Part shown: piece after piece, positions 1 to 22,491 of the stretch
Layout of the letters: each line of letters begins with the position of its first letter
How positions within the stretch are numbered: position 1 is the first letter of the stretch
Source: Prevotella sp.
GTDB taxonomy: Bacteria; Bacteroidota; Bacteroidia; Bacteroidales; Bacteroidaceae
Length of the DNA stretch: 64,000 nt
Assembly (NCBI GenBank): GCA_017561825.1
Contig: JAFZBK010000049.1
Location: 31,752-95,751 of the forward strand
Direction: 5' to 3'
The notes under the pieces: model-generated
Seen by the model: only the letters and a program-made list of their open reading frames with translations
What the model was told of the DNA's origin: nothing
Database searches by the model: none
Program-made: the position numbers and the translations under genes

Positions 1-3000
1 TGAACATTACCCAGAGTTCAGCTCAGCCTGGACAGGGCTTCAAGGTGAACATCCGTGGTATGGGTACCATTGGTGAGAGTTCTCCGTTGCTGATTATCGA
101 TGGTATCTATGCAGGTACAGCCGATAACGGTCTGAACGGTTTGAACCCGAACGACATTGAGAGCATCGACGTGTTGAAGGATGCTGCTTCGGCTGCCATC
201 TACGGTGCCCGTGCTGCCAATGGTGTAATCCTCGTTACCACCAAGCAGGGTAAGGCTGGTACGCTTTCTGTCCAGTACGACGGCTTCGTTGGCTGGTCGA
301 ATGCTTACAAGGTGCCTGGTATGGTGAATGCTCAGCAGTACATGCAGATTATCAATGAGACCAACTTCAACACCTATGGTACGATTACCAACTGGTCAAG
401 TCTCGTTCCGCAGCGTATCCTTGACAAGGTGAACAACGGATGGGAAGGTACTGACTGGTTCAAGGAGTATGAGAATAAGAACGCCCTGCAGTTCAGTCAT
501 GCTGTGACATTGTCTGGCGGTAGCGAGCGCTCCAAGTTCTCTTTGGGCTTGAACTACAGTTCTAACGAAGGTATCATGGGTGGAGACAACGCCTCCAACT
601 ACAAGCGCTATGGCGGACGTATCAACTCTGAGCACGTTGTGTGGAAGGCTGCTGATCATGATGTTGTCACCATCGGTGAGAATGTATCTTACTGGTATCA
701 CAGAGGTCATGTGCTTGCTGAGAGCAACGGTTACTGGAATGTGATGCAGTCAGCTTATATTGCTTCTCCGCTCGTAGAGCCTTATGATGAGAATGGCAAT
801 CTGACCAGCTATGCTACAAACCACTTTGGTTATAGTGACATGGTCTATGTTCAGCCGTTGAACAGTTTCCTTAATGGTGAATATGGTTCTCTGAACAAGA
901 GTCGTGATTTCGGTGTAGGCGCAACCATTTACTGGATTATCGAGCCGATCAAGAACCTGAGGTATCGTGGACAGTTCAATACAGGCTACAGTAGCGATAA
1001 CTACCGTCAGATAGGTCTGCCTTATAGCAAGACTTCCACGCGTTCATCTTCCGCTTACACGCTTAGCATGAGCCAGAATCAGAGTAGTAGTTTCTCTTTG
1101 GAGAACACGCTTTCTTATATCCTGCCGAAACTTGGTAAGAATACCATTGACGTACTGGTTGGTCAGTCAATCGAACGCTCCAACTGGAGTACGGGTATGA
1201 ACATGAACTTCGAGGTTACTGAGGATAATCTGAATACGATGATCCTCAATGGTTGGGATTACAATATTCCTGCCAACTATGAGAAGGTACAGACCCACAG
1301 TGGTTATGACAACCCGATGCAGGGTAGCATCGCTTCGTTCTTTGGACGTATGAACTGGAACTATGACGAGAAGTACATGGCAACGGCTATCATCCGTGCT
1401 GATGGTTCCAGCAACTTTGCACGCGGCAAGCGCTGGGGTTACTTCCCCTCATTCTCTGCTGGTTGGGTGATTACCAACGAACCTTTTATGGAAGGAACAC
1501 GCAGTTGGATGGATTTCTTGAAGCTCCGTGCTTCTTGGGGACAGAATGGTAACTGTAACATCCCGAACTTCTATTATCTGTCAAACATCAAGTTCTCTCC
1601 GACAAATTATGCCGACTATGGTTATAAGTTCTCCAGCGATATGTTCAATACCGTAAACCGTAACGTTTATCAGACTGGTGCATACGCTTCTAACGTTCCT
1701 AATCCCGATGTGACTTGGGAAACTTCTGAGCAGATCAACCTCGGTCTTGATGCACGTTTCATCAATGGCAAGCTCGGTTTGAACTTCGACTGGTATGTAA
1801 AGAAGACAAAGGACTGGTTGGTGAAGGCTCCGATGAACCAGGTACTTGGTTATGAGGAGGCTGCATACGTGAATGCCGGTGACGTAAAGAACACTGGTTT
1901 CGAGGTTGCTCTTAGCTGGCGCGACAGAATCGGACGCGACTTCAACTACTTCGCCAACGTGAATGTAGCTACCAATAAGAACGAGGTAACTCGTCTGGCC
2001 AACAACGCAGGTTATATCAACGGTGAGGATAAGGCTATCTTCGAGAACTCTTCTTGGGCTTCTCGCGTAGAGGTAGGTCACCCCATCGGTTACTTCTCTG
2101 GTATGTCATACAGCGGCATCTGGCAGAATCAGGCTCAGATTGACGCAGCTCGCAAAGCAGGAAAGGCCGTTATTGACGGTGCTCAGCCTGGTGACTGCAT
2201 CTGGGATGACTGGAATGGTGATGGACAGATCTCTCTCTCAGAGGATCGTCACGAGATCGGTAACCCGCATCCGGATGTAACCCTTGGTGTAAGCCTTGGC
2301 TTTGATTGGAGAGGCTTCGACTTTGGCGTGACAGGTTCAGGTGCTTTCGGCATGCAGGTAATGCAGTGCTACCGTACCGCTCTCTTGGCTAGTCCATACG
2401 ACAACTACACAGTTGACGCATTTGATCGTTGGCACGGAGAGGGCACCAGCAACAAGTATCCTCGTCTTACTGTAGGTTCTATTAACGACCAGTGGGTATC
2501 TACCCGCTATATGCAGGATGCCGACTACTTTAAGATCCAGAACGTAACATTGGGTTATGACTTTGCCCGTCTGTGGAAGCAGGAGTATTTCTCCAAGTTC
2601 CGCATCTACGTTCAGGCTCAGAACCTCTACACCTTCACCAAGTACACAGGTGTTGATCCTGAAATCGGTTCATCTGGCGGTAAGGACTCTTGGGCACGTG
2701 GTATTGACGTAGGTCTCTATCCTACAGCACGTACTTTCATTATTGGTGCCAGCATCAATTTCAAGGATAAGAAAGACAAGGTTGCTACTGTAGCTCCGAA
2801 GGTGGTTTATCAGGTGGACAACAGCGAGATCGATCGTCTGAATGGAGAGATCAACCGTCTCCGTGCACAGATGAACCAGCCAGCTCCTGCTGCTAAGGAG
2901 AAGGTGGTTGTTAAGGAGTCTGTCCTGACCTATCCGTATTTTGTCAATTTCGACCTCAACGTAACCGACGTGGTGAACCGTGAGAAGGTGAACCTGAAGA

Positions 3001-3257
3001 ATATCGCTGAGATGATTAAGGAAGCACCTGCTGGAACGAAGTTCAATGTAGTTGGCTATGCTGACAAGGCAACAGGAACCGCCGAGCACAACGCATGGCT
3101 GGCAGAGCATCGCGCCCAGAACGTTTACGATGTACTCGTTAAGGAATTCGGTGTACCGGCAAGCAGTCTCATACTCGACTCCAAGGGCGGTGTGGGCGAC
3201 ATGTTCTACAACAGCAATGAGCTGAGCCGTGCCGTCATCATCTCTGAGGTTAAGTAA
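1..3257 (+). CDS. SusC/RagA TonB-dependent outer-membrane transporter with C-terminal OmpA-like domain, 5' partial
   Basis: The reading frame is open from base 3, so the start lies outside the window. The first visible residues are the plug domain (LLIIDGIY, then the conserved NDIESIDVLKDAASAAIYGARAA), followed by a long 22-strand-type barrel. SusC proteins import oligosaccharides or peptides with a SusD lid, powered by TonB. Unusually, the barrel (ending near nt 2770, SINFKDK) is followed by a charged linker and a roughly 105-residue OmpA-like peptidoglycan-binding domain (nt 2935-3254). That domain keeps GYADKATG and the RAQNV helix, which hold the Asp and Arg that bind diaminopimelate in OmpA. 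SusD follows 41 bp downstream. The family call is certain; the substrate is unknown. Confidence 0.95.
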   Translation, partial: NITQSSAQPGQGFKVNIRGMGTIGESSPLLIIDGIYAGTADNGLNGLNPNDIESIDVLKDAASAAIYGARAANGVILVTTKQGKAGTLSVQYDGFVGWSNAYKVPGMVNAQQYMQIINETNFNTYGTITNWSSLVPQRILDKVNNGWEGTDWFKEYENKNALQFSHAVTLSGGSERSKFSLGLNYSSNEGIMGGDNASNYKRYGGRINSEHVVWKAADHDVVTIGENVSYWYHRGHVLAESNGYWNVMQSAYIASPLVEPYDENGNLTSYATNHFGYSDMVYVQPLNSFLNGEYGSLNKSRDFGVGATIYWIIEPIKNLRYRGQFNTGYSSDNYRQIGLPYSKTSTRSSSAYTLSMSQNQSSSFSLENTLSYILPKLGKNTIDVLVGQSIERSNWSTGMNMNFEVTEDNLNTMILNGWDYNIPANYEKVQTHSGYDNPMQGSIASFFGRMNWNYDEKYMATAIIRADGSSNFARGKRWGYFPSFSAGWVITNEPFMEGTRSWMDFLKLRASWGQNGNCNIPNFYYLSNIKFSPTNYADYGYKFSSDMFNTVNRNVYQTGAYASNVPNPDVTWETSEQINLGLDARFINGKLGLNFDWYVKKTKDWLVKAPMNQVLGYEEAAYVNAGDVKNTGFEVALSWRDRIGRDFNYFANVNVATNKNEVTRLANNAGYINGEDKAIFENSSWASRVEVGHPIGYFSGMSYSGIWQNQAQIDAARKAGKAVIDGAQPGDCIWDDWNGDGQISLSEDRHEIGNPHPDVTLGVSLGFDWRGFDFGVTGSGAFGMQVMQCYRTALLASPYDNYTVDAFDRWHGEGTSNKYPRLTVGSINDQWVSTRYMQDADYFKIQNVTLGYDFARLWKQEYFSKFRIYVQAQNLYTFTKYTGVDPEIGSSGGKDSWARGIDVGLYPTARTFIIGASINFKDKKDKVATVAPKVVYQVDNSEIDRLNGEINRLRAQMNQPAPAAKEKVVVKESVLTYPYFVNFDLNVTDVVNREKVNLKNIAEMIKEAPAGTKFNVVGYADKATGTAEHNAWLAEHRAQNVYDVLVKEFGVPASSLILDSKGGVGDMFYNSNELSRAVIISEVK

Positions 3258-3298: not shown

Positions 3299-5149
3299 AT
3301 GAAAAAGATATATTTAATGGCAATCGCGGTTCTTTTCGCAGTTGGACTCACCTCTTGCGAGGACTTCCTCGATTCCTCGAATTATACAGGAGCAACGAAT
3401 GAGAACTACCCTGCTACGGCTGGTGACTTGACAAAAGAGCTGGCTGCCCTGTATGGTGTGATGAACCAGATGAGTACGGATCCCCTCCAGACTCCTTGGT
3501 TCGTGAACTACATTATGTCTGATGAGGGTAATGGTGCCGGTGGTACTGGTGACGTTGAGGCACACGCTATCGGTCACCTGATGACCAACAAAGAGACTCT
3601 CTTTGATAGTGCATGGAAGAATGTTTATGTAGGTATTTCACGTGCAAGCGCCATTATCTATGGTGTGGACGCTTTCGACTGGACTGGTCAGGAGAAAACC
3701 CGTAACCAGCTTCTTGGTGAGGCTTACTTCATGCGTGGTTTGTTCTACCTCTGGGGCGTACAGTTCTGGGGTGACATCCCTGCATACTGGGCTATCGCAG
3801 CTCCGGATCCTTGTCCTCAGCTGAGCGCAGAGAACGAGATCATGCCGCATATCCTGGCCGACTTCACCAGTGCTGCCAACTTGATGAGTCACGGTATGAC
3901 AACACGTGGCGACGGTCATGCAACCAAGGGTGCTGCCGAAGGTATGTTGGCTCGTGCCTATATGTTCTACGAAGGCTTCTATAAGAAAGCCGGTGAGCTG
4001 GCTTCAGCTTCTCTTCCTGATGTTCCTTTCGACTTCGAGCAGGAAGCTGCCGGTTCTTCACTGAGCAAATCTCAGGTGGTTTCTTATCTGGAGGATGCTA
4101 TCAACAACGGTGGTTACAAACTCGTTGAGGACTTCCGTCTGTTGTGGCAATATACCAACGAGCTGACTATTCAGGACTATGCTTATGTAGCTGACCTGAA
4201 AGAGGCTGGTAAGGTATGGGCTGGTAACGGCAACGAAGAGGAGATGTTCCAGGTTCAGTATATGAACTGTAACTCTTGGGATGGAACCATCGGTATGGGC
4301 TTCTGTAACCAGGTTGAGCTGTATTGCGGTCTGCGTTGCGATGCTGATGAGAACAGTAATGTTAACGGTGGTAAGGAGACCTTCCCGTTCGGACAGGGCT
4401 GGGGCCAGGGTACCATCAACGCTACCCTTTGGGATGATTGGAGTGATGCCGACCCACGTAAGAAGGCTACCATTCTGAATGGTCCGGAAGAGCTGCAGGC
4501 TTACTACTTCACAACCTCTTGCTCAGAGGATGCTGGTTTGTATAACAAGAAATGGATGTGCGTTACTTGTATGGATACCGACTTCGACGGTCAGTCTAAC
4601 TATGCATGGTGGGGCGTATGGCGTGCCAAGAACACGGATACATCCTCTCCTAACGGTAACTCCTTCCAGGGCGACCACTTCTCAGATCTCGTATTGCTCC
4701 GTTTGGCTGACGTCATGCTGATGCATTCAGAGCTGACAGGTACGGCTGATCAGATGAATAAGGTACGTGCTCGTGCCGGTCTGGCTGCTACCACTTATTC
4801 ATGGCAGAACATCAAGAATGAGCGCCGTTGGGAGCTCGCAGGTGAGGGTCTGCGTTACAACGACCTCCGTCGTTGGTCTGGTAAGGATGGTGGTGCCTCC
4901 TGTGAAGCTGCAACTGCCCTCCAGAAACAGGAAGGCTCTCGTGTGAACTACACAGGAACATGGACAACCATGAGTCATGGTAAGGGCGTAGGCGGTAGCA
5001 GCTGGGCTCAGCGCTATGCTGATACAGACGGCTTCCTGCCCAAGCCTCCTTCACAGATTGCTATCATCAACGATCCTGAGATCCTGAGTCAGAACAAGGG
5101 ATGGTATGATGGTACGAAGTGGAGTATGTCAGGTACACCTATCTATTAA
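3299..5149 (+). CDS. SusD/RagB family nutrient-binding lipoprotein
   Basis: Protein of 616 aa with a lipoprotein signal peptide (MKKIYLMAIAVLFAVGLTSC, lipobox Cys at 20). It then shows the SusD hallmarks: an N-terminal helical region with an RNQLLGEAYFMRGLFYL-type TPR motif, and a C-terminal part with ERRWELAGEGLRYNDLRRW and FLPKPPSQI. It should sit on the outer face of the outer membrane and cap the SusC-OmpA transporter encoded just upstream. The pair and the next gene are closely spaced on one strand and are probably cotranscribed. No glycoside hydrolase is visible nearby, so the ligand cannot be named. Confidence 0.95.
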   Translation: MKKIYLMAIAVLFAVGLTSCEDFLDSSNYTGATNENYPATAGDLTKELAALYGVMNQMSTDPLQTPWFVNYIMSDEGNGAGGTGDVEAHAIGHLMTNKETLFDSAWKNVYVGISRASAIIYGVDAFDWTGQEKTRNQLLGEAYFMRGLFYLWGVQFWGDIPAYWAIAAPDPCPQLSAENEIMPHILADFTSAANLMSHGMTTRGDGHATKGAAEGMLARAYMFYEGFYKKAGELASASLPDVPFDFEQEAAGSSLSKSQVVSYLEDAINNGGYKLVEDFRLLWQYTNELTIQDYAYVADLKEAGKVWAGNGNEEEMFQVQYMNCNSWDGTIGMGFCNQVELYCGLRCDADENSNVNGGKETFPFGQGWGQGTINATLWDDWSDADPRKKATILNGPEELQAYYFTTSCSEDAGLYNKKWMCVTCMDTDFDGQSNYAWWGVWRAKNTDTSSPNGNSFQGDHFSDLVLLRLADVMLMHSELTGTADQMNKVRARAGLAATTYSWQNIKNERRWELAGEGLRYNDLRRWSGKDGGASCEAATALQKQEGSRVNYTGTWTTMSHGKGVGGSSWAQRYADTDGFLPKPPSQIAIINDPEILSQNKGWYDGTKWSMSGTPIY

Positions 5150-5187: not shown

Positions 5188-6663
5188 ATGAAAAAATCAA
5201 TTATATGCTTGATCGTTGCGGCTGGTATGGCTGTCTCTTGTGATCCTATCAAGGACGAGAAGGATTTTGATATCTATAGCGTGTCAGCGAGTGAGATTGA
5301 GAATGCCATCTCTATCACCCAGACGGATGCCAACGGCAACCCAGCAGCTGATGGTAATTACTTTACCTATACAACGAATCCGGCAATACCGGTAACGATC
5401 TTCAATTATATGAGTGACGGCTCTGAGAATATGTTGGCACATGGCATGAGCGGCTCATTCGTGATTAAGCCGAAACGTGGCTCTGATCCTAACCAGACAT
5501 ACTATATCCGTTTCGTCGATTCTAATAACAATCCTGTTGATATCCAGAGGTCTTGCAATGTCTATGTGCAGCAGGAGCTGGATCCGGAAATCCGTCTGCT
5601 TGCCTCTGATGTATATGGTAAGAAGATCTGGAAATGGGATACTTCTATTACAGGAACCTTCTGGGGTAACATGGGTTACTGCGGTGGCTCTGGTGATGCC
5701 ATTGGTATTGATGGCGGTGGTGCCCAGTGGTGGGGTATGTCTTCTGACGCTGACTTCCCCGAGCAGCTCCAGCACTCTCACGATGGTGCATACCATGGAG
5801 AGGGTCTGAACGCTTGGATGGAGTTCTCTGATGAAGGTATCATTACCTGCTACAACGAGAATGGTGAAGTATATCAGTCAGGTCCGTTCTCTGTAGAAGG
5901 CTGGAATCCCAACGGAGAATGGAGAAAGGGTCTCTTGAAGACTACATCTATCCTGTGGCCGTATCAGGTTAACTGGGCTAGCAATGGATTTGACGCGATT
6001 CCTGGTGAGTATGAGATCGTTTATCTCACTGCCGACAAGATGACGCTCGTTTATCCTGATGGTGGTGACTACGGCGGTCTTGGCAACTGGGGTGAGGCTA
6101 CCTACTGGCACTTCAAGAGTAACTCAGATATTGAAGGCATGGCATTAGGTTATGGTAAGACAGCCAAGAAGAGTTGGACATGGGATACATCTATCACTGG
6201 TGCTGTTTGGGGTAACATGGGTTACTGCGGCGGTGCAGGTGCTGATGTAGGTACTGCTGGTAACGGTCAGTGGTGGGGTATTGACAGCTCTGCCGAGTTC
6301 AATAACCAGTTGCAGCACTCTGAAGGTGGTGTGAATCATGGAGATGGCCACCTTGATGCTTACATGACATTCGATGCTGATGGAATAGTGACGAGCTATG
6401 GCGCAGATGGTTCAGTTGTTCACTCGGGTGCCTACGAGTTCGCTCCTGTAAATGGAAATGAATGGAAGGTGGCTGATCTTAATACTTCTGCAGGTGCTAT
6501 TCTGTGGCCGTATGAGATCAACTCCGGCGGTAACATGCCTACAACGTTCGAGGTTGTTTATCTGACTAATGACAAGATGACACTCGTTTATCCTGCCGGT
6601 GGAGACTTCGGTAGCCTCGGCGGTTGGGGTGAAGCAACGTTCTGGCACTTCAAGGCAAAGTAA
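5188..6663 (+). CDS. Surface lipoprotein with tandem duplicated domain (SusE/F position)
   Basis: I start this gene at 5188, where MKKSIICLIVAAGMAVSC gives a clean lipoprotein signal; an upstream in-frame ATG at 5119 would overlap SusD and place 23 non-signal residues in front. The 491 aa product has an N-terminal part of about 140 residues. Two copies of a domain of about 180 residues follow, at residues 145-326 and 327-491. Shared motifs are WDTSITG, WGNMGYCGG, QWWG, LQHS, ILWPY, DKMTLVYP and GGWGEATxWHFK. The position after SusCD is the SusE/SusF slot, so a surface glycan-binding role is plausible, but I do not recognise the domain family. Confidence 0.85.
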   Translation: MKKSIICLIVAAGMAVSCDPIKDEKDFDIYSVSASEIENAISITQTDANGNPAADGNYFTYTTNPAIPVTIFNYMSDGSENMLAHGMSGSFVIKPKRGSDPNQTYYIRFVDSNNNPVDIQRSCNVYVQQELDPEIRLLASDVYGKKIWKWDTSITGTFWGNMGYCGGSGDAIGIDGGGAQWWGMSSDADFPEQLQHSHDGAYHGEGLNAWMEFSDEGIITCYNENGEVYQSGPFSVEGWNPNGEWRKGLLKTTSILWPYQVNWASNGFDAIPGEYEIVYLTADKMTLVYPDGGDYGGLGNWGEATYWHFKSNSDIEGMALGYGKTAKKSWTWDTSITGAVWGNMGYCGGAGADVGTAGNGQWWGIDSSAEFNNQLQHSEGGVNHGDGHLDAYMTFDADGIVTSYGADGSVVHSGAYEFAPVNGNEWKVADLNTSAGAILWPYEINSGGNMPTTFEVVYLTNDKMTLVYPAGGDFGSLGGWGEATFWHFKAK

Positions 6664-7057: not shown

Positions 7058-8536
7058 ATGAGAAAGGGATTAAGGAGATATGGAAACTGGGTGCTGTCGG
7101 TACTTGTTGGTATCGGCGTATTCCTGTTTTGGTATATCCTCTACCCCCACGCATTGTCGTATCAGGAACAGTATCAACTGTTCTTATGGACAGGTGATTA
7201 TTTCATGGAACGGATCAGTGTGCCTGGGGGCTTGGCCGACTGGCTCGGCGAGTTCATCGTGCAGTTCTATTATGTGGAATGGCTGGGTGCATTACTCCTG
7301 GCATTGCTGTTTGTTGTCTTGCAGCGATTGACCGCAAGACTGCTGCCCAAGAAATGGTGGCTGCTGAGTGTGGTGCCAGTATTGTTGGTTCTATGGCTGA
7401 TGGGCGACGTGAACGTACTGCTGTCATTACCCGTTGCAATCATCCTGGCTTTGGCATTGGCTTGCATCCGACTGCCCAAGCGCCTTTCCTGGCTCGATAT
7501 CCTGATTATTCCCATCGCCTATTGGCTGATTGGACCGGCGGTTTGGATATACATCATCGTTCGTGTATTACAACTGGGATGGAAGCATCTGTGGTCGGCG
7601 GTATGGTTCTTGGCGGTGCTGTTGATGGCGTATGCCTGGCTGTTGCCGCAATGGCCTTTGCAGCAGGTAATGACAGGTCTGAACTATTGTCGTACCCCGC
7701 TAACCTATCCCCAATGGAAAGGTTACGACAAGGATATGTATGAGTTGATCCGTCAGGACTATCTGGTACGAAACGAACGATGGGATGAGATCGTGAAGCG
7801 GGCGAAGGAATATCAGGTGAGAACACCTTTCAGTTCTGTCTGCGTCAATCTGGCCTTGTCGCAAAAGCGTCAGTTGGCAGATCGGATGTTCGACTTCTAC
7901 CAAAGTGGTGATGATGCGCTGATCATGCCACGTATTCGCGACCTGACCTCGATGCTGCCTTCGGCTGAGGCCTTCTGGCATTTGGGTATGGTGAACTCGT
8001 CATTGCGTTATTTCTTTGATACGCAGGAGTCGATCCTGAATGGGAGAATGAGCGGTCGTTGTACGAAGCGCATCGCAGAATGTATGATCGTGAACGGTCA
8101 TTACAAGACTGCCGAGAAGCATCTTCATCTACTCAAGCAGAGTTTGTTCTATCGTGGATGGGCGAAAGAGGCTGAGGCGCTGATGAAAGATGAGGCTAAG
8201 ATCAATGCACACCCCGTGTATGGTAAGCTGCGCAAGCTAAGATATAAGGATGATTTCCTTTATAGTCATGAGGAACTTGACAAGATGTTCGGACTGCTCT
8301 TCATGAATAACCAGGAGAACAAGATGGCGCTCGATTACTTCATGGCAGAGATGCTCTTGAAGGGAAATCTCCAGGGCTTCCAACAGAATATGGGCGTGGT
8401 GCAGCAGATGGGCGGTTATCGCATGATGCCACTGGGCTATCAGGATGTGATGCGCTGCATTCAAGCTCAGGGGAACGTGCCAGGCTCCCCATACGCCAAG
8501 TATGTGCAGCGGATGGCAGAAAGGAGGGGAGAATGA
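7058..8536 (+). CDS. Polytopic membrane protein with TPR-like C-terminal half (probable DUF6057 family), copy 1
   Basis: Protein of 492 aa. A hydrophobic N-terminal half holds about six membrane segments up to residue 215, with the conserved stretch YQEQYQLFLW and PGG..DWLGEFIVQFYY after the first. The C-terminal half is soluble and rich in helical pairs (AECMIVNGHYKTAEKHLHLL, NQENKMALDYFMAEMLL), resembling TPR repeats. Its stop overlaps the next ATG by 4 bp (ATGA), implying translational coupling to the CxNCH lipoprotein. Two paralogues with the same partner lie at 10710 and 15411. I recall this family as DUF6057, without a known function. A role as membrane scaffold or redox partner for the lipoprotein is inference only. 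Confidence 0.85.
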   Translation: MRKGLRRYGNWVLSVLVGIGVFLFWYILYPHALSYQEQYQLFLWTGDYFMERISVPGGLADWLGEFIVQFYYVEWLGALLLALLFVVLQRLTARLLPKKWWLLSVVPVLLVLWLMGDVNVLLSLPVAIILALALACIRLPKRLSWLDILIIPIAYWLIGPAVWIYIIVRVLQLGWKHLWSAVWFLAVLLMAYAWLLPQWPLQQVMTGLNYCRTPLTYPQWKGYDKDMYELIRQDYLVRNERWDEIVKRAKEYQVRTPFSSVCVNLALSQKRQLADRMFDFYQSGDDALIMPRIRDLTSMLPSAEAFWHLGMVNSSLRYFFDTQESILNGRMSGRCTKRIAECMIVNGHYKTAEKHLHLLKQSLFYRGWAKEAEALMKDEAKINAHPVYGKLRKLRYKDDFLYSHEELDKMFGLLFMNNQENKMALDYFMAEMLLKGNLQGFQQNMGVVQQMGGYRMMPLGYQDVMRCIQAQGNVPGSPYAKYVQRMAERRGE

Positions 8537-10020
8537 AAAGAAGGGTTTTAACCAAACTAGTATCACTAGTATTGCTAGTACCACTAGTGCAACTAGCTCT
8601 GTTAGGTTGTGTCAGCAGCCCGGATAATCCTGTAAAGGTAAATGCGCTGCCTGAAATCTATCCTGATTATATCGGTGTGACCATTCCTGCTGGTATCGCT
8701 CCGCTTGACTTCAACTTTGTCGATGAGGATATCGATGGCATGGATGTGGTGGTTAAGGGTAGCAAAGGCGGAGAGATTCATGCCAATGGTGCGTGGGCTG
8801 ATTTCAATATAGACGACTGGCATGCGCTGACTGAACAGAATGCCGGAGGTGAACTGACATTCACGGTATGTGTCAAGAAAGACGGTCAGTGGAAGCAATA
8901 TCAGGACTTTAAGATATACGTGAGTCAGTACCGTCTTGATGAGTATGGTGTTACTTACCGTCGTATCGCTCCAGGCTATGAGGTGGGTGGTGATATCGGT
9001 ATTTATCAGCGAGATATCCATAGCTTCAAGGAGTCGGTTATCTTGGCAGAGAATATTGTTCCAGGACAATGTATGAACTGTCATGTGGCCAACCGCGCCA
9101 ATCCCAACACGTTTAACATGCAACTACGAGGCTCAAGTGGCGGAACGTTAATATACAAGGATGGTAAGCAGTCGTATCTGACAACCAAGACTGACAGTAC
9201 GGTTGCCAATACCAGCTATTCGTATTGGCATCCTGATGGCGACTATTGCGCCTTCTCTACCAATTCCATCCACCAGAGTTTCTTTGTGGGCACAGGTCAG
9301 CGCATCGAGGTGTATGATACGTTCAGTAATGTGCTTGTCTTGGATACGAGAACCAACGAGCTTGTTCTTTGTCCGCTGTTGCAGACTGATGATTGGGAGA
9401 CCTATCCTGCTTTCTCTGCCGATGGGAAGACACTGTTCTATTGTACGGCCAAGCCTTTCAGGGTGCCCGCCGAATGGGACAAGGTGAAGTACAGTCTGTG
9501 CAAGATCTCGTTTGATGCCAAGACAGGTACTTATGGCACTCAGGTTGATACGTTGCTGAATGCCCGTGAGTTGGATAAGAGCTTTACGTATCCACGACCG
9601 TCGTACGATGGCAAGTGGCTGATGTATAATGTCACGAACTGCGGTAATTTCCCAGTGAATCATCCCGAGGCAGACCTTTGGCTGATGAATCTGAAAACGG
9701 GGGAGACGCATCCTTTGACGGAGGCGAACAGTGATGATACGGAGAGTTACCATAGCTGGAGCCTAAACAGTCGTTGGTTCGTGTTCTCCAGTCGTAGGGA
9801 GAATGGCGTCTATAGCATGCCGTATATTGCCTTCATAGACGAGAACGGTCGTGCCGGCAAGCCTTTTCTACTACCTCAGCGCAACCCGAGGAAATACTAT
9901 CTGGAAGAGATGGATTCCTATAACAGCATCGATTTCACTGAGAGTAAGGTAAGGTTTGATGCCCATGAGACCTATCGAAAAGTGTTTGACAATCAAAGAA
10001 TACAAGTAACAATAAGATAA
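8533..10020 (+). CDS. Propeller lipoprotein with single CxNCH haem-c-like motif, copy 1
   Basis: Protein of 495 aa with a lipoprotein signal (LALLGC, Cys26). An N-terminal beta domain carries the family motif YPDYIGVTIPAGIAPLDF. A CMNCH motif follows at residues 180-184 and fits covalent haem-c attachment. The C-terminal half has TolB/PD40-like blades (AFSTN, FSADGKTLFYC, WSLNSRWFVFSSRRENG). The exported location suits cytochrome c maturation in the periplasm, but only one CxxCH is present and the distal ligand is unclear. Codons 9-22, inside the signal peptide, are built from a 9-bp CTAG repeat. Zinc or disulfide use of the two Cys remains possible. Confidence 0.85.
   Translation: MKRRVLTKLVSLVLLVPLVQLALLGCVSSPDNPVKVNALPEIYPDYIGVTIPAGIAPLDFNFVDEDIDGMDVVVKGSKGGEIHANGAWADFNIDDWHALTEQNAGGELTFTVCVKKDGQWKQYQDFKIYVSQYRLDEYGVTYRRIAPGYEVGGDIGIYQRDIHSFKESVILAENIVPGQCMNCHVANRANPNTFNMQLRGSSGGTLIYKDGKQSYLTTKTDSTVANTSYSYWHPDGDYCAFSTNSIHQSFFVGTGQRIEVYDTFSNVLVLDTRTNELVLCPLLQTDDWETYPAFSADGKTLFYCTAKPFRVPAEWDKVKYSLCKISFDAKTGTYGTQVDTLLNARELDKSFTYPRPSYDGKWLMYNVTNCGNFPVNHPEADLWLMNLKTGETHPLTEANSDDTESYHSWSLNSRWFVFSSRRENGVYSMPYIAFIDENGRAGKPFLLPQRNPRKYYLEEMDSYNSIDFTESKVRFDAHETYRKVFDNQRIQVTIR
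8557..8596. repeat. 9-bp-periodic CTAG array inside the signal-peptide coding region
   Basis: CTAG occurs at 8557, 8566, 8575, 8584 and 8593, exactly 9 bp apart, within ACTAGTNNN units. In this frame the array encodes repeated Leu-Val, which is compatible with a signal peptide core. Confidence 0.95.
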
Positions 10021-10022
10021 CA

Positions 10023-10688
10023 ATGAAAAAGATTCTATTATGTTTCACGACCGTGGCAGCTGCAATGATGATGTTCGGTTGCCAGTCGTCAGGTGATGGT
10101 ATGTGCCATATCACCGGTGTGGTGAAAGGCGAGCAGTACGAGGGCAAGCGTATCTTCCTTGTACCCATGAACGGTCCTAAGACCACGGAGTATGTGGATT
10201 CCATGGAAATAACCAATGGGATGTTCTCCTTCAAAAAAGACTTCAGCAAGGATACCATACAGATGTATCAGATTTTGATGGACTATCACTATCGTATGGG
10301 CTTACAGCCTTTGTTGTTGGTGGGTGAACCCGGAGAGGTAAAGGTGGTGATTGATAGTGTGAGCAGCGCAGGCGGAACACCGCAGAACGACTCGCTGCAG
10401 CAGTGGAAGATACGTACAGAGATGCATAACCTGCAACTGGCAAAGATGCGCAGGAATGTCGAAGAACTCAAACAAAAGGGTGATACGGTGCAGGCGAAGT
10501 ATATTGATCAGCGGGCAGACAGCTTCCATCTGGTCTATAAGAACTACACCCGTCAGTTGGCGAAGAACATGAAGAAGGGTGTTCTCCATGATTTCCTGAA
10601 GCAGCGTTTCCCCTTGACCTATAAGCGTAAGTATCCCGACGGACGAGTTGTCACGTTCAACGCAGATACGAATGAAGAGATAAAATGA
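10023..10688 (+). CDS. Lipoprotein with DUF4369-like N-terminal domain and no thioredoxin domain
   Basis: Protein of 221 aa with a lipobox (MMMFGC). Residues 25-120 resemble the DUF4369 domain that usually precedes a thioredoxin/AhpC fold in Bacteroidota disulfide reductases (CHITGVVKG, GKRIFLVPM, YVDSMEITNGMFSFKK, LLLVGEPGEVKVVID). The rest is a charged helical tail (residues 130-221), and no CxxC thioredoxin is present. It starts 2 bp after copy 1 of the CxNCH lipoprotein and ends 21 bp before the second membrane protein, so it is part of the same operon. Its role there is unknown. The DUF4369 assignment rests on pattern memory. Confidence 0.75.
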   Translation: MKKILLCFTTVAAAMMMFGCQSSGDGMCHITGVVKGEQYEGKRIFLVPMNGPKTTEYVDSMEITNGMFSFKKDFSKDTIQMYQILMDYHYRMGLQPLLLVGEPGEVKVVIDSVSSAGGTPQNDSLQQWKIRTEMHNLQLAKMRRNVEELKQKGDTVQAKYIDQRADSFHLVYKNYTRQLAKNMKKGVLHDFLKQRFPLTYKRKYPDGRVVTFNADTNEEIK

Positions 10689-10709
10689 GGTTATAAGTAA
10701 AAGTGAAAC

Positions 10710-12464
10710 GTGAATAATAAGCTGTCGCTTTATAAGCATTCCTATTGGTTGCTGACCTTGGTGTTTGGCATAGCGGTGTTTCTCTTTTGGAGATTCCGCT
10801 ATCCGTTTGCGCTGACCTATCAGGAGCAGTTGCAACTGTTCTTGTTTGACGGCGATTACTTCTGTAGTCGTATGGCCGAACCTGGGGGCTTTGCTAGGTA
10901 TATTGCTGAGTTCTTGGTGCAGTTCTATAATGGTGTCACCATCGGTGCCCTGATCCTGGCTGTGCTCTTCATGCTCATCCAACGCCTCACCTGGCGAGTG
11001 ATGAACTCTCACCTCTCACTTCTCACCTCTCACTTCTATCCATTGAGCTTCCTCCCCGCCCTGATGCTGTGGTTTGCCATGGGCGATGAGAGCGTGATGC
11101 TGACGTATGCGGTGGCTTTGATCTTGGCGCTAGCTGCAGCTTTAGGCTTAGCAAAACTAGTTAAACTAGTAAAATTAGAACAACTAGGTAAACTAGCTAT
11201 CTTAGCCAAACTAGGCTTTTTTTTAGTGCCTATTCCTTTGCTCTATTGGCTCATCGGTCCTATGGTGCTGTTGGTGGCTGCATTGATGCTACCTTTAATA
11301 GTGGCGGCAGTGGAAGTTATCTATGCCTTGCAACTGATCTTACTGAGCGCATACTATCTGCCTTTCCCGAAGTCAAGAGTGGTGTTGGGCATCAGTTATT
11401 ACCGTTTCCCAGAGGTGCTGCCCTACATACTGATGGCGATTCCCGTTGTTATCATCCTGCTTGTTTGGCTTTGCAGGAAGTTCCATACGGTTCTTGAGAA
11501 GCAGAAAAAGTGGTTATATGTGGCAGAACTCGTCGTGTTGACGTTAGCTGCTGTACTGATCATCCCTCGCGGCTATGACGCCAAGAAATATGAGCTGATA
11601 GAATACGACTATCTGGTACGTACCAATCAGTGGAATACCATCATCGCCAAGGCTGAGAAACAAATGCCCGACCTGCCGATGAGTGTGAGTGCTACGAATT
11701 TGGCGCTGGGTATGACGAACCAGTTAGGGGAGCGGGCGTTCGACTTCTATCAGCGTGGCTCAGAAGGTTTGCTACCGAAGTTCGAGCGGAACTTCGCCAC
11801 GGCACAGCTGACGGGTGAGATCTATTTCAACTTAGGACTGATAAATACGGCCCAACGCTTTGCCTTTGAGGCCATGGAGGCAATACCTAATTATAATAAG
11901 AGTGCCCGTGTGGTGAAACGTCTGGCAGAAACGAATCTTATCAACGGTCAGTACAAGGTGGCCGAGAAATACCTGAAGATGCTGGAGAAGACAGTTTTCT
12001 ACCGACCGTGGGCAAAGCGTACCTTGGCGATGCTGGGTGATGAGAAACAGATCAATAGTCATCCGCTCTATGGCACTTTGCGCCAGTATCGTCTGCAGGA
12101 GGACTTCCTTTTCAGCGAGCAGGAACTCGACAAGATATGCGGCAGGTTGTTTGTTCAAAACTCACAGAACCAGATGGCAGCACAGTATCTGCTGCTGATG
12201 CCCCTGCTTGACAGGGATATCCCTCGCTTTATGTCGTATGTCCCAGTGGTGCAGGAAAAGGCTCAATATAATCCGCGCAGCTGTCAGGAGGCCCTGTCCT
12301 TTGCGTTCATGCAGCAACGTCAGCAACCGCCTCGCGGACTTATCAGTGATATGATCCTGCAGAAGATGAATGATTTCAGCAGGATATACAGCAACAACAA
12401 GCAATCGCCTGAACTGGCAAGATTCAAGAATACAGTGTGGTACTATTTAACGGTAGGAAAATGA
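10710..12464 (+). CDS. Polytopic membrane protein with TPR-like C-terminal half (probable DUF6057 family), copy 2
   Basis: Protein of 584 aa starting at GTG 10710; an in-frame stop lies two codons upstream, so no earlier start exists. It shares with copy 1 the N-terminal YQEQLQLFLFDGDYF and PGGFARYIAEFLVQFYN, and the helical C-terminal half (NLINGQYKVAEKYLKML, FLFSEQELDKICGRLFVQN). It is longer because the membrane half has extra segments to about residue 290. Two low-complexity inserts lie in that half: a 7-bp CTCACYT array (residues about 100-108) and a 9-bp CTAG array (residues 150-168, a LVKLVKL-type stretch). Its stop overlaps the next gene by 4 bp. Confidence 0.85.
   Translation: MNNKLSLYKHSYWLLTLVFGIAVFLFWRFRYPFALTYQEQLQLFLFDGDYFCSRMAEPGGFARYIAEFLVQFYNGVTIGALILAVLFMLIQRLTWRVMNSHLSLLTSHFYPLSFLPALMLWFAMGDESVMLTYAVALILALAAALGLAKLVKLVKLEQLGKLAILAKLGFFLVPIPLLYWLIGPMVLLVAALMLPLIVAAVEVIYALQLILLSAYYLPFPKSRVVLGISYYRFPEVLPYILMAIPVVIILLVWLCRKFHTVLEKQKKWLYVAELVVLTLAAVLIIPRGYDAKKYELIEYDYLVRTNQWNTIIAKAEKQMPDLPMSVSATNLALGMTNQLGERAFDFYQRGSEGLLPKFERNFATAQLTGEIYFNLGLINTAQRFAFEAMEAIPNYNKSARVVKRLAETNLINGQYKVAEKYLKMLEKTVFYRPWAKRTLAMLGDEKQINSHPLYGTLRQYRLQEDFLFSEQELDKICGRLFVQNSQNQMAAQYLLLMPLLDRDIPRFMSYVPVVQEKAQYNPRSCQEALSFAFMQQRQQPPRGLISDMILQKMNDFSRIYSNNKQSPELARFKNTVWYYLTVGK
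11008..11035. repeat. 7-bp-periodic CTCACYT array inside a coding region
   Basis: CTCAC at 11008, 11015, 11022 and 11029, exactly 7 bp apart, within the membrane half of copy 2. A sister array of the same unit lies in the intergenic region at 63368. Confidence 0.9.
11157..11214. repeat. 9-bp-periodic CTAG array inside a coding region
   Basis: CTAG (or TTAG at 11175 and 11202) occurs at 11157, 11166, 11175, 11184, 11193, 11202 and 11211: seven units with a strict 9-bp period. It encodes an extra Leu/Lys-rich membrane-proximal stretch. Confidence 0.95.
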
Positions 12465-13939
12465 GGAAGGTTCGAGAGATACAGTTTTTGCTAGTTTTAC
12501 TAGTATCACTAGTATTACTAGGTTGCACCAGTCAGGTGCAAAACCCTATCAAGGTGGATCAGTTGCCTAAGATCTTCCCTGATTACATCGGTGTAACCAT
12601 TCCTGCCGAGATTGCACCGCTGAACTTCAACAGCATAGATGAGGATATCGATGTCATGGATGTGGTGGTAAAAGGCTCCAAGGGGGGCGAACTACACGTC
12701 CAAGGCGATGTGGCTGATTTCGATATCGACGACTGGCATGCGCTTACCCAGCGGAATAAGGGCGGTCAGCTGACCTTCACCGTCTGCATCCGGAAGGAAG
12801 GACAGTGGACGCAATACAAGGATTTTGTGGTGATGGTCAGTGAATATGCCCTTGATGAATGGGGACTCACCTACCGTCGTATAGCCCCGGGCTATGAGGT
12901 GTTCAGTAAGATGGGACTCTATCAGCGCGACCTGTCTAACTTCAATGAGTATCCTATCATTGAGAATACACAGGTGCCGGGTATGTGTGTCAACTGTCAT
13001 GCTGCTCATCAGACCGATCCTCAGCAGTTCGTCTTCCACGTTCGTGGCGGTCATGGTGCCACGATGTTCCAGATCAACGGTCTGCGTGAGTGGCTGAAAG
13101 CTGGTAATGACCAGTTAGGTGGCTCGATGGTCTATCCCTATTGGCATCCCAGCGGGAAGTATTGCGCGTTCTCTACCAACCAGACTCGTCAGGGTTTCCA
13201 TGTGGCTCCTAATGAACGCATCGAGGTGTTTGATTTGTCATCAGACGTGTTTGTATATAACCCTGCCACACATGAGATCCTGACGGATACTCTCTTGCGG
13301 ACCAAGGATTGGAGCGAGAACGTTCCTGTGTTCTCTCCTGACGGTCGTACGTTGTATTATATGACTTGTAAGCAACAGGATTATCCTGCTCATTATAAGG
13401 ATGAGAAGTATAATCTTTGTAAGATCGACTTCGATCCGGAAACGGGAACGTTCGGCGAGAAGGTGGATACGATCTTCAATGCGGTGGCCATGGGGAAAAG
13501 TTTGACATGGCCCCGTCCTTCCTATGATGGGAAGTATATCCTTTTCACACTGATGGATTACGGCTACTTCTCCATCTGGCATGAAGAGAGCGACCAGTGG
13601 TTGCTCGACTTGCAAACAGGGGAGGCTCGGGAACTGAAGGAGATCAACAGTCCGAAGGCTGACAGTTATCATAACTGGAACCTGAACTCGCATTGGATTG
13701 TCTTTACCAGTAGGAGAGGGGATGGATATTACAGTCGTCTTTACTTGGCGAGTGTTGATGAACAAGGGCGTTTCTCAAAGCCGTTCCTCCTGCCACAACG
13801 TCATCCCAAAGCGTATGATGAGGAGAGTATCTATTCCTTTAATACTCCCGACTTCACCAAGACGAAGGTGGACTTCAATGCTTATCAGGCGGGTAAGGAG
13901 ATTGTATCCGACCAGCGAGTGGAAACAAAAGTGAAATGA
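12461..13939 (+). CDS. Propeller lipoprotein with single CxNCH haem-c-like motif, copy 2
   Basis: I start at ATG 12461, which overlaps the preceding stop as ATGA and gives a lipoprotein signal with Cys22 (LVLLGC). The 492 aa product is collinear with copy 1: FPDYIGVTIPAEIAPLNF, DDWHALTQ, YRRIAPGYEV, then CVNCH at residues 176-180, and propeller blades (HPSGKYCAFSTN, FSPDGRTLYYM, WNLNSHWIVFTSRRGDG). It is therefore an exported outer-membrane or periplasmic lipoprotein with a possible haem-c site. A CTAG array again builds the signal-peptide core. The gene ends at a convergent hairpin shared with copy 3. Confidence 0.85.
   Translation: MRKVREIQFLLVLLVSLVLLGCTSQVQNPIKVDQLPKIFPDYIGVTIPAEIAPLNFNSIDEDIDVMDVVVKGSKGGELHVQGDVADFDIDDWHALTQRNKGGQLTFTVCIRKEGQWTQYKDFVVMVSEYALDEWGLTYRRIAPGYEVFSKMGLYQRDLSNFNEYPIIENTQVPGMCVNCHAAHQTDPQQFVFHVRGGHGATMFQINGLREWLKAGNDQLGGSMVYPYWHPSGKYCAFSTNQTRQGFHVAPNERIEVFDLSSDVFVYNPATHEILTDTLLRTKDWSENVPVFSPDGRTLYYMTCKQQDYPAHYKDEKYNLCKIDFDPETGTFGEKVDTIFNAVAMGKSLTWPRPSYDGKYILFTLMDYGYFSIWHEESDQWLLDLQTGEARELKEINSPKADSYHNWNLNSHWIVFTSRRGDGYYSRLYLASVDEQGRFSKPFLLPQRHPKAYDEESIYSFNTPDFTKTKVDFNAYQAGKEIVSDQRVETKVK
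12491..12521. repeat. 9-bp-periodic CTAG array inside the signal-peptide coding region
   Basis: CTAG at 12491, 12500, 12509 and 12518, 9 bp apart, at the position equivalent to the array in copy 1. Confidence 0.95.
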
Positions 13940-13941
13940 TG

Positions 13942-13963
13942 ATGGCGGCCAATGGGCCGCCAT
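13942..13963. terminator. Bidirectional hairpin between convergent lipoprotein genes
   Basis: ATGGCGGCC (13942-13950) pairs perfectly with GGCCGCCAT (13955-13963) in the 26 bp between two convergent stops. The T tracts are weak on both sides. Confidence 0.7.
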
Positions 13964-13965
13964 TG

Positions 13966-15414
13966 TTATTTGAAAGGTATTGCTTCCTGCTTCATTACTT
14001 TCGCTACATCGTTCGCATCGAAGGGAACCTTTCCCTTTCCTAATTCCGGGGCATTGAACGATTTCAGGTTGTTATCGTAGAACGTTGGATGTTTCTGTGG
14101 CAGACAGAAGGGTTTGTGCGCCTTGCCGTTCTTGTCGATATAGCAGAAATAGGGTTTTCCATATAATCCGTCATCACGCTTGGAGGCAAACACGAACCAA
14201 CGACTGTTACTGCTCCATGAATGATAGGTGTCGCTCTTCTCGCTGTTTACGATGGCAAGGGTGTCAATAGCGCCTGTCTGCAAATCCATCATTTGCAGAT
14301 CTGCCTCAGGATGCCAGATGGGGAAGGTACCGTAGTCGGCCACCGTATAAAGCAGATATCTTCCGTCAGGACTGATTCGCGGATGACAGACGGACTGTTT
14401 GGTATGCTGTTGTGACACATCAGCTAACTGAATGACTTCTTCAATCTCTGTGCCGATAGTGCCTGTCTGCTCGTCAAAGGGAATCCTTACAAGACAGTAT
14501 TGCAGTTTCTGAATGTCTTGTGGCAGACTCACTGTATCGGCACTACAATAATAGATGTACTTGCCATCGGGCGAGAAGGTGGGGAAGGTCTCGAACTTCA
14601 GACTGTCACACAACAAAGGTGAAGAGATGATCCGATGCTCCTGCATGTCGGCTACATAGACATTTGATGTGGCATCATAGACCTCCAATCGCTTGCTGGC
14701 AACACTATGGAAGGCAGGGATAATCTTCTGGGTGGAGTAGGTGATGTACCGTCCACTAGGACTGAAACAGAAATAGACACTGCCAGGGATGTTGAGTTTA
14801 CTGAGCGTGCCGTTCTGGTTCAGGATGGCACCGCCTCCGTCACCTCTGACATACATCATCGACAACTGCGGATCTTGATGGGCAAAGGTATGACAGTTCA
14901 TGCAGCGGTTCCCTAACTGCTCATAATGACCGATGGCATTGACGTTGAAGTTCTCCACACAACGCTGCTGGATCTGCAGTCGGTTGAAGATCTCGTAGTC
15001 GGGCTCGATAAGACGGTAGGTGAGATAAGGATCGATCTTGTCCTTGACAATGGTCCAGGTGAACGGTTTGTATTCAATCCATTGATCGTTGATGAGTGCT
15101 GTCACCGATACTGTCAGTTCCTTACCAGCGTTCTTTTCCATCAGTTCTTTCCATTCGCTCATATCGAACGTTACCTCATTACCTTTGGCATTGATGGTGA
15201 TATCTCCTGTCTGAACCTGAATGGCTTCGCATTCTGCACGAAGCAGGAAGTTCAGCGGAGCGATGTTCTCTGGGATGGTGACATCGCAATAATCAGGATA
15301 GATAGGAGGCAGCTCATCGCTCTGCTGCACATCCCTTGGGGTGGGGGTGCAGGATGCGAAAGTTGCTAATACAACAAGCATCACTAGTTTGATATATTCA
15401 TTGAGCTTTCTCAT
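13966..15414 (-). CDS. Propeller lipoprotein with single CxNCH haem-c-like motif, copy 3
   Basis: Protein of 482 aa with a lipoprotein signal (MRKLNEYIKLVMLVVLATFASC). It shares YPDYCDVTIPENIAPLNF with the other two copies, then has CMNCH at residues 171-175 and propeller blades (FSPSGRYITYST, FSPDGKYIYYCS, ISPDGRYLLYTV, WSSNSRWFVFASKRDDG). Its ATG overlaps the stop of the upstream membrane protein by 4 bp, exactly as in the other pairs. It is more divergent than copies 1 and 2 are from each other and lies on the opposite strand, so it is not a fresh tandem copy. Confidence 0.85.
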   Translation of the reverse strand: MRKLNEYIKLVMLVVLATFASCTPTPRDVQQSDELPPIYPDYCDVTIPENIAPLNFLLRAECEAIQVQTGDITINAKGNEVTFDMSEWKELMEKNAGKELTVSVTALINDQWIEYKPFTWTIVKDKIDPYLTYRLIEPDYEIFNRLQIQQRCVENFNVNAIGHYEQLGNRCMNCHTFAHQDPQLSMMYVRGDGGGAILNQNGTLSKLNIPGSVYFCFSPSGRYITYSTQKIIPAFHSVASKRLEVYDATSNVYVADMQEHRIISSPLLCDSLKFETFPTFSPDGKYIYYCSADTVSLPQDIQKLQYCLVRIPFDEQTGTIGTEIEEVIQLADVSQQHTKQSVCHPRISPDGRYLLYTVADYGTFPIWHPEADLQMMDLQTGAIDTLAIVNSEKSDTYHSWSSNSRWFVFASKRDDGLYGKPYFCYIDKNGKAHKPFCLPQKHPTFYDNNLKSFNAPELGKGKVPFDANDVAKVMKQEAIPFK

Positions 15415-16814
15415 ACCTTAGGCGCATTTGATTTGTCAAAGTAATACCAGTAGGAGCCTTTGAAGCGGGGATGACCTCGTTGGTTGTTGTACTCAACGAA
15501 ACGATGCATCACCTCTTTGTTCACAATGTATCTCTCCCATTCTTCTTGCGGGGCATTGGTACCGGCCAGCCAGATGCATAGTGCTTCTTGGTAGAGTGTC
15601 TTCAGACGTGGCTTTCCTGTATTGATGCAGTAGCGGTCGTAATCGCGCTTGAAGTTTTCGATATCTTTCAGGAGCAGGTTACTGCAGAGGATATAGTCTA
15701 AGGCGATGATGTTGTCGGGATGACTGTCCAACAACTGCATCATCAGGAAATGGGCATTGTCTGAAACCGTGATGGTGTCGTGATGGTTGATGAACTTGGT
15801 CTTCTCCTCATACAGCTGCTTGCTGTTCTTCCTAATGTTTTTTGCCCAAGAACGATAGACCCATGTCTTGTCGAGGATTCGCAGGTACTTGTTGGCGGCC
15901 AGGGTGTCCTGACTAACGATGTTGCATTCGGCCAATCGTCTGATCATACGCACATTCCTGTTCTGTGGAGAGAATACGTTCGACATCATGGCTGCACGCT
16001 CCGTGAAGGTCATGTCACCCAATACCCAATACAGCTCATTCATATTCTTGATGGTGAGCATGGGTGTCTCAGGACCGATTTGATAGAAGGTGCCGAGTTC
16101 GTTGTTACTGAATCGCATCAGGTAGTCGGGCAGTTGTCCTTGCCGAGCACGTACCAGGTTATAGAAGAACTTCATCTCTTGGGTAGGGTTCTTGTCGTTC
16201 TCTACCATGTCAATGACTTTCTGGTAATGACCGAAATAGTATTCATTATCCACAGCGAACTGCTTTTCCAAGAAGAAGTCGGGGACTCTCAGTTTTCCCC
16301 ATTGAGGAAGTCCGAACAGCCAGTAGCCGATGACTGCGGCGAGGATGATAACAATCCCGTTCAGCCATTTCTTCTTTCCCCACAGCCATGTGGCGCCATA
16401 CAGCGTGATAAGAAGACCGGCTGCTGAGATAATGTTCCACAGCCGGTAGCTGTGATGAAAGCTGAAAACGGCACCTAAGGTCATGAGTAGGATGGCAATC
16501 ACAAATGTCCAAATCCTTTTCATGCCACAGCGTTCAAGTAATCTGCGCGCCGCATCTCCCAATATCAGTAAGGCCAAAGTGAGGATGATGGCTCCCAGAT
16601 ACAGGTAATAATATAACTGTGTAAGGAAGTCACCAATGAGTCTGGCCAGCCATCCGCAAGGGGCTAAATACTGACAGATATGCTCCCGAGAGAGTAGGAA
16701 GATCTGGTTCTGCTCCTGGTAAAAGAAATGGTAGGAATAGTAAAACTGGAAGAAAGCCCAGCATACTACTCCCCAAATGATTACTAATACAAATGGACCA
16801 TATTTCTTTACCAT
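15411..16814 (-). CDS. Polytopic membrane protein with helical C-terminal half (probable DUF6057 family), copy 3
   Basis: Protein of 467 aa with the family N-terminus (FFQFYYSYHFFYQEQNQIFLL, then LARLIGDFLTQLYYYLYLG), about five to six membrane segments to residue 175, and a helical soluble half (RRLAECNIVSQDTLAANKYLRILDKTWVYRSWA). It starts only 23 bp after the argF' stop, with no TAnnTTTG box in the gap, so transcription probably reads in from the arginine/proline operon. It is coupled by ATGA to the CxNCH lipoprotein gene. Function unknown. Confidence 0.85.
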   Translation of the reverse strand: MVKKYGPFVLVIIWGVVCWAFFQFYYSYHFFYQEQNQIFLLSREHICQYLAPCGWLARLIGDFLTQLYYYLYLGAIILTLALLILGDAARRLLERCGMKRIWTFVIAILLMTLGAVFSFHHSYRLWNIISAAGLLITLYGATWLWGKKKWLNGIVIILAAVIGYWLFGLPQWGKLRVPDFFLEKQFAVDNEYYFGHYQKVIDMVENDKNPTQEMKFFYNLVRARQGQLPDYLMRFSNNELGTFYQIGPETPMLTIKNMNELYWVLGDMTFTERAAMMSNVFSPQNRNVRMIRRLAECNIVSQDTLAANKYLRILDKTWVYRSWAKNIRKNSKQLYEEKTKFINHHDTITVSDNAHFLMMQLLDSHPDNIIALDYILCSNLLLKDIENFKRDYDRYCINTGKPRLKTLYQEALCIWLAGTNAPQEEWERYIVNKEVMHRFVEYNNQRGHPRFKGSYWYYFDKSNAPKV

Positions 16815-17800: not shown

Positions 17801-17805
17801 AATTT

Positions 17806-17833
17806 TCAATTCTCAATTGTCAATTTTCAATTA
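17806..17833. repeat. 7-bp-periodic TCAATTN array in the proA-argF' gap
   Basis: TCAATT at 17806, 17813, 17820 and 17827. The four units fill the gap between the proA stop (17831) and the argF' ATG (17800). Confidence 0.95.
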
Positions 17834-21869: not shown

Positions 21870-21902
21870 AACTTCAATTCTTCAATTTTTCATTCTTCCA
21901 TT

Positions 21903-22460: not shown

Positions 22461-22463
22461 ATT

Positions 22464-22491
22464 TCAATTTTCAATTATCAATTTTCAATTT
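22464..22491. repeat. 7-bp-periodic TCAATTN array in the proC-xre gap
   Basis: TCAATT at 22464, 22471, 22478 and 22485. It fills the gap between the proC stop (22490) and the xre ATG (22460). Confidence 0.95.

Follow-up and report, generated by a model that had tools for sequence, protein, structure and literature searches.

What is the function of a membrane protein and a propeller lipoprotein that a Prevotella encodes side by side, three times over? The window analyzed here, a stretch of 64,000 nucleotides from Prevotella sp. (GenBank assembly GCA_017561825.1, 88% complete; positions 31,752 to 95,751 of contig JAFZBK010000049.1, hereafter contig C2), contains three such gene pairs, and an earlier note, made from the letters alone, had read the single CxNCH motif of each lipoprotein as a haem c site. 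The answer toward which we lean, as reasonably probable, is a periplasmic mono-haem c propeller that would sit on a dedicated inner-membrane partner of the DUF6057 family and do redox chemistry. Support at the sequence level comes from the invariance of the motif, the near-constant pairing of the two genes, the matching trees of the partners, and co-occurrence with a maturation gene for haem c.

In the first pair, A, the membrane protein (7058..8536, forward strand; PF19529, E 8.6e-123) precedes a PD40 propeller lipoprotein (8533..10020, forward), whose CMNCH, residues 180-184 (9070..9084, forward), is the predicted haem c site. Pair B has its membrane protein at 10710..12464 (forward; PF19529, E 4.6e-173) and its lipoprotein at 12461..13939 (forward; the longest open reading frame (ORF) starts from a GTG at 12437, with an ATG at 12461), with CVNCH at 12986..13000 (forward). 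Pair C lies on the reverse strand, with the membrane protein at 15411..16814 (PF19529, E 1.8e-117), the lipoprotein at 13966..15414 and its CMNCH at 14890..14904. A check of the window's ORFs found all three pairs open and their members overlapping by ATGA, and the first Cys of the motif is C180, C176 and C171 in A, B and C, just as the earlier note had it. PD40 (PF07676) exceeds the Pfam cut-off in all three lipoproteins, whose blades the note had described as TolB-like. All three membrane proteins belong to DUF6057 (PF19529), which Pfam calls a family of unknown function, at 394 to 578 bits against a cut-off of 29.8. The triplicate of the earlier note holds for the window and not for the genome: a genome search found five family lipoproteins, three in the window and two elsewhere, and both of the latter have a DUF6057-like gene directly upstream (by similarity, L005 and L152), which makes five pairs. 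The closest named records to lipoprotein A, from Xylanibacter ruminicola and Prevotella, are 82-83% identical.

The CxNCH motif and haem c maturation

The earlier note had staked its haem reading in part on conservation of CxxCH across the family, and conserved it is: 125 of 127 family ORFs (from 49 loci of other genomes and the genome's own loci, five of them the window's genes fetched again) carry CxNCH, and the two that do not are halves of one broken gene (L037, 7902-9356). Residues C180, N182, C183 and H184 are invariant in all 95 rows of the lipoprotein alignment (A2; 94 of 100 length-filtered references plus one from outside the filter), where the lipobox Cys, C26, is the sole further Cys column above 80%. 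Because C..CH occurs in none of 314 unrelated ORFs of at least 300 amino acids from the same loci, the motif is beyond chance. Profile searches of whole genomes revealed relatives in other classes (L064, L065) that keep CxNCH, as do relatives of about 560-950 amino acids, whose N-terminal anchor or lipobox was read by eye. In the latter, CxNCH and propeller are followed by TPR repeats in two of the three proteins tested by Pfam, such that the three elements are united in one chain in some relatives. The lipoprotein-type and fused relatives listed all keep the motif, except for fragments that miss the motif region (L107, L136); profile matches without CxxCH (L069-L072) match only part of the propeller, and we took them as other proteins. 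The family has 1 to 8 copies per genome. One copy, in genome G651 (L122), has in-frame stops and looks broken. Matches in six plasmid records appear to be pieces of chromosome, and we make no claim of mobility. A candidate second haem ligand is H407, conserved in 93 of 95 rows (H377, in 85 of 95); of 13 remote relatives, 10 matched in a search with the stretch around H407, and all 10 have the His.

How does the lipoprotein compare with known proteins? Cytochrome cd1 (NirS), NirN/NirF and hydrazine synthase alpha have a c-type haem beside a periplasmic beta-propeller. The family lipoprotein resembles them in its haem c site beside a propeller, which here is predicted, but differs in having one CxxCH and a membrane partner of its own; in the window lipoproteins no cytochrome c domain exceeds the Pfam cut-off, and neither Cytochrom_D1 (PF02239) nor HZS_alpha (PF18582) matches at E<=1. 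With TolB/PD40 propellers (PF07676, TIGR02800) the lipoproteins share PD40 and a weak similarity to TolB chains. Against TolB of Tol-Pal (TIGR02800), they score 20.9 to 29.5 bits, far under the cut-off of 343, and unlike TolB they have CxNCH, a lipid anchor and a DUF6057 partner. PDB sequence searches with the lipoprotein gave weak matches only, the best being 2ojh (E 0.0029), with TolB at 0.086.

Do the genomes that encode the lipoprotein also encode the means to attach a haem to it? The genome of the window carries, on contig C8 (L148:6305-10290), a row of two multi-CxxCH genes, of which the second is nrfA, a ResB-like gene and a CcsA-like gene. Among 199 genomes of the bacterial family, the lipoprotein is found in 101, CcsA in 175 and NrfA in 64, and CcsA is present in 98 of the 101 lipoprotein-positive genomes versus 77 of the 98 negative ones (p 5e-5). 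We considered and rejected a dependence on NrfA, which occurs in 29 of 101 positive and 35 of 98 negative genomes (p 0.36); with NrfA-positive genomes left out, CcsA is in 69 of 72 lipoprotein-positive versus 42 of 63 negative genomes (p 8e-6). Similarly, in a survey of 247 genomes of the order, in which 32 passed E 1e-10, three of them with long or fused proteins (G455, G535, G588; best E about 1e-30 to 1e-32) being left uncounted, CcsA is in 29 of 29 positive and 178 of 218 negative genomes (p 0.006). We also rejected the idea that CcsBA serves the lipoprotein family alone, as CcsBA also adjoins DHOR genes (Pfam, L196); at L147, genes that by eye are DHOR-like and imelysin-like lie by CcsBA.

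Several points weigh against the haem. The genomes are related and the p-values, uncorrected for kinship, are overstated; scoring in the lipoprotein surveys was confined to the best 4-7 candidates of each genome, such that some "negatives" may hold the gene; and one of the six seed patterns for the locus search held CxNCH, which biases the closest orthologues and, less so, the neighboring paralogues. H407 is replaced by Pro in 2 of 95 rows. CcsBA occurs in 0 of 30 lipoprotein windows, and the tie to maturation is thus one of genome, not of neighborhood. Finally, the earlier note had held that presence of the family without a haem c maturation system would speak against it: this is not what most genomes show, but G651 and G796 are without CcsA and ResB by profile while their lipoproteins keep CxNCH, and G639 has ResB at a contig end with CcsA not found. 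G651 and G796 could be assembly gaps or real counter-examples. These two or three genomes, seemingly short of a full maturation system, favor an alternative in which CxNCH, located ahead of the propeller, would be a structural disulfide, a thiol-redox site or a metal site, as do the missing Pfam cytochrome c domain and the missing CcsBA neighbors. We nevertheless consider this very unlikely, given C-x-N-C-H with an invariant His in lipoproteins of many families, its co-occurrence with CcsA, and a chorismatase-like neighbor, described below, that is common to CcsBA and cytochromes. We propose that the CxNCH of the lipoprotein very probably bears a covalent haem, in line with the earlier note, to which strict conservation in the family and its remote relatives and the near-universal CcsA of lipoprotein-positive genomes lend support.

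DUF6057 as the probable membrane partner

Of 118 full lipoproteins, 110 have DUF6057 as the gene directly upstream, and in 56 of these pairs the two genes meet at an ATGA, GTGA or TTGA. The same order and ATGA overlap, which the earlier note took as the sign of a fixed complex, therefore hold in the window but not family-wide, where the lipoprotein can also come first (L229, L231, L242) or the genes diverge (L223). Of the eight lipoproteins without DUF6057 upstream, those of L016 and L017 stand in runs of DUF6057-DUF6057-lipoprotein-lipoprotein, and those of L004, L023 and L024 sit at the edge of the fetched stretch. Among 30 windows around distant lipoproteins (G373 and G645 were added to 28 of the 29 genomes found positive in the order survey), 29 contain DUF6057, the single miss being a 5-kb contig. 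At locus L230 (G503:C26), the surroundings of the pair include a gene that has eight CxxCH motifs. The trees of 87 partners match with r 0.93, versus a mean of 0.19 and a maximum of 0.51 in 500 within-locus shuffles. This match comes largely from paralogue groups, which tempers its weight, yet a dedicated partner for each paralogue would lead to just such a match. In all likelihood DUF6057 and the lipoprotein form a complex, and adjacency and matching trees agree with the dedicated two-protein unit that had been suggested from the window.

Within DUF6057, the YQEQ region that had been called invariant proves common: "QEQ" is present in 69 of 83 rows of alignment A3 (83 of 87 references), and the invariant residues are E37 and Q69. 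No His column reaches 60% of the 83 rows, and one Cys column is found, in 51 of 83, none being invariant; it is thus unlikely that DUF6057 itself carries haem or metal. Successive loops have mean net charges of +1.4, -3.4, +1.3, -1.8, +1.9, 0.0 and +1.4 in 70 A/B-type rows, and of +1.9, -2.5, +2.5, +0.5 and +3.3, then -2.0 after helix five, in 13 C-type rows. Under the positive-inside rule this alternation would place the YQEQ loop, in membrane protein A as elsewhere, in the periplasm, and likewise the C-terminal half of the C-type proteins. This topology is provisional, as naive helix counts range from 4 to 8; simply counting the positive charges of alternate loops gave no decision (2.51 versus 2.25), and the aligned loops did better. 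The TPR-like half of the earlier note finds a faint echo in the profiles, TPR_12 matching the C-terminal half of one of the three window proteins at 13.5 bits (cut-off 30.1; E 0.083). A PDB sequence search with DUF6057 matched CbiQ (E 0.012), which we took as chance, and gave nothing convincing otherwise.

On which side of the envelope does the pair work? The signal for export of Bacteroidota lipoproteins to the cell surface is acid-rich. In 90 of 95 lipoprotein rows the five residues after the lipobox Cys include 0 or 1 Asp or Glu, and the surface location that the earlier note entertained is unsupported. We consider the periplasmic side the probable one.

Neighboring genes and a chorismatase-fold enzyme

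Our analysis adds to the earlier note a SusCD row, a conserved DUF4369 member and a chorismatase-like partner. The row opens with a SusC/RagA TonB-dependent transporter (3..3257, forward; Pfam/NCBIfam), which is cut by the window start (its longest ORF begins at 31259 on contig C2) and ends in a C-terminal OmpA domain, peptidoglycan-binding, with similar tails seen by eye in several loci. A SusD-like lipoprotein follows (3299..5149, forward; Pfam/NCBIfam), then gene X (5188..6663, forward; ORF from a GTG at 5119, in-frame ATG at 5188), which has a lipobox by eye, belongs to no known family and has no Pfam match at E<=0.01. Between pairs A and B lies a small DUF4369 protein (10023..10688, forward; PF14289; lipobox by eye). 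In 54 loci around the first pair, mostly of one clade and often with cut flanks, the commonest neighbors are gene X (34 loci), DUF4369 (33), SusD (32) and SusC (27), in clusters formed by BLAST, of which those of SusC and SusD may mix different kinds. Together with the pairs they yield the row SusC-SusD-X-DUF6057-lipoprotein-DUF4369-DUF6057-lipoprotein that the window shows. Genes that by eye serve arginine and proline biosynthesis adjoin the pairs at 16838-24431, and in Parabacteroides distasonis (L057) the annotated neighbors of the pairs include argininosuccinate synthase, argC and an aminotransferase.

Could the pair be part of TonB-dependent uptake? SusC and SusD would then import a ligand for the haem propeller, which would bind, sense or modify it in the periplasm ahead of transport or signalling. 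In addition to the clusters at the first-pair loci, SusC is found in 11 of the 30 distant lipoprotein windows versus 1 of 20 others (p 0.016), and SusD in 11 of 30 versus 0 of 20. Among the 20 control windows, L152 itself has a pair, L158-L160 have fused relatives, and 13 were fetched for the chorismatase-like gene. However, 19 of the 30 distant windows are without SusC or SusD, neither is seen by the genome's own two other copies (L152 by profile, L153 by eye), and both profiles were built from first-pair loci, which favors matches there. We regard a role within uptake as rather unlikely.

A second partner lies outside the window. The distant pairs of L162 and L163 and the fused relatives of L157 and L161, four of ten windows chosen as remote or weak matches, adjoin a two-domain RidA-superfamily protein like the FkbO/Hyg5 chorismatases (TIGR04444; PDB 5ag3, 4bps), to which it is homologous. 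The protein matches PDB 5ag3 with E 1.9e-38; against TIGR04444 four tested proteins reach 146 bits at best, the cut-off being 325, and the C-terminal C-R...E residues of chorismatases are kept in 25 of 25 sequences. In the order survey, for which one of the query rows came from a surveyed genome, G535, 49 of the 247 genomes passed 1e-8, and the 42 below 1e-20 were counted. The gene is present in 26 of 29 lipoprotein-positive versus 16 of 218 negative genomes (p 5e-21) and, within 15 families that hold both states (limited to genomes with the family printed), in 16 of 18 versus 3 of 24.

Is this association also one of neighborhood? The chorismatase-like gene is in 5 of the 30 lipoprotein windows, against 0.13 expected at a density of one gene per 3.5 Mb, and it also occurs in 3 of 54 close loci. 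For example, DUF6057-lipoprotein comes immediately after it in Segatella copri (L029), and DUF4369-DUF6057-lipoprotein after it in G373, of the window's genus; in the genome of the window it is on another contig (L195), there without a CxxCH neighbor. Within about 1.5 kb of the 30 best-scoring matches, on which adjacency was counted, we find a CxNCH propeller or DUF6057 in 8, CcsBA in 2, another CxxCH propeller in 6, which makes 16 with a haem c-type neighbor, and none of these in 14; a separate set of 20 contexts was picked partly for coordinate coincidence. In L196:8604-17890 the gene is clustered with a fused CcsBA, a DHOR-family gene and Porin_O_P, possibly an iron or redox cluster. Fused CcsBA accompanies it also in L198, L199, L208 and L209, the last three also having a DHOR-family gene. 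Likewise, it occurs with a propeller-cytochrome c protein and CcsBA in L200:6499-14297 (G337) and L211:1791-11766 (G499), the former cluster also encoding one protein with HZS_alpha, FGE-sulfatase and NPCBM domains (L200:6499-10494); DhaK/DhaL-like genes were seen by eye in both. The chorismatase-like gene looks like an enzyme linked to c-type haem proteins more widely, and its sharing between the pairs and the CcsBA/cytochrome clusters indirectly supports the presence of a haem on the lipoprotein.

Two further readings turn on this enzyme. In the first, the pair would be an anaerobic redox module, a mono-haem propeller on DUF6057 that uses or acts on a small aromatic molecule derived from chorismate. 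The FkbO/Hyg5-like enzyme would make the aromatic in the cytoplasm, for example as a shuttle or metal chelator, SusCD would take it back, and the same gene would serve the other haem c clusters (CcsBA/DHOR and HZS-alpha-like). We hold this to be decidedly unlikely. In the second, the pair would be an assembly or cofactor-handling factor that, together with the chorismatase-like protein, serves some other haem protein, in the way that NirF and NirN are factors for the haem d1 propeller NirS. The spread of the gene over other haem c clusters and a paralogy of 1 to 8 copies per genome are consistent with such a factor; on the other side, no single client gene is constant, lipoprotein trees match DUF6057 trees, and 72 of the 101 lipoprotein-positive genomes are without NrfA. 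This makes the assembly factor most improbable.

Proposed mechanism and significance

How might a haem propeller on a DUF6057 base work? We propose the following scheme, in which haem attachment, substrate, electron route, periplasmic location and quinone link are all inferred; electron transfer and sensing, the two roles that the earlier note had suggested, stay conjectures. Each pair would form one periplasmic unit associated with the inner membrane. The lipoprotein would have an N-terminal domain that looks Ig-like by eye and a TolB-like beta-propeller, with one c-type haem bound at CxNCH, and the system II proteins of the cell, CcsB/CcsA, would attach the haem. DUF6057 would contribute membrane helices and, on the periplasmic side, the conserved YQEQ loop and a TPR-like half that grips the propeller. 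The haem could then perform one-electron redox chemistry on a substrate bound by the propeller, its most likely electron partner being the quinone pool, reached at the interface with DUF6057. Both the quinone link and the substrate are guesswork, each offered as tentative and somewhat doubtful, and DUF6057 has no conserved His and no known quinone motif, which counts against the scheme.

A propeller with haem c is of a known kind; its layout here and its membrane partner we did not find described, at the level of titles and abstract openings. At that level, no work that treats the DUF6057-lipoprotein pair or family was found, nor any paper that names DUF6057.

Finally, to our knowledge, the Bacteroidales of gut and rumen are generally regarded as poor in c-type haem proteins. 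Our analysis suggests that members of the Bacteroides/Prevotella group from gut and rumen have an overlooked lipoprotein family, very probably with one covalent haem. If haem-bound, a family present in 101 of 199 genomes, in up to eight copies and with its own partner, would widen the periplasmic redox biology of the Bacteroidales. The lipoprotein would also give one reason for the retention of CcsA in NrfA-negative genomes (69 of 72 versus 42 of 63), and the finding draws attention to a chorismatase-fold enzyme, as yet unstudied, that has ties to haem c genes.

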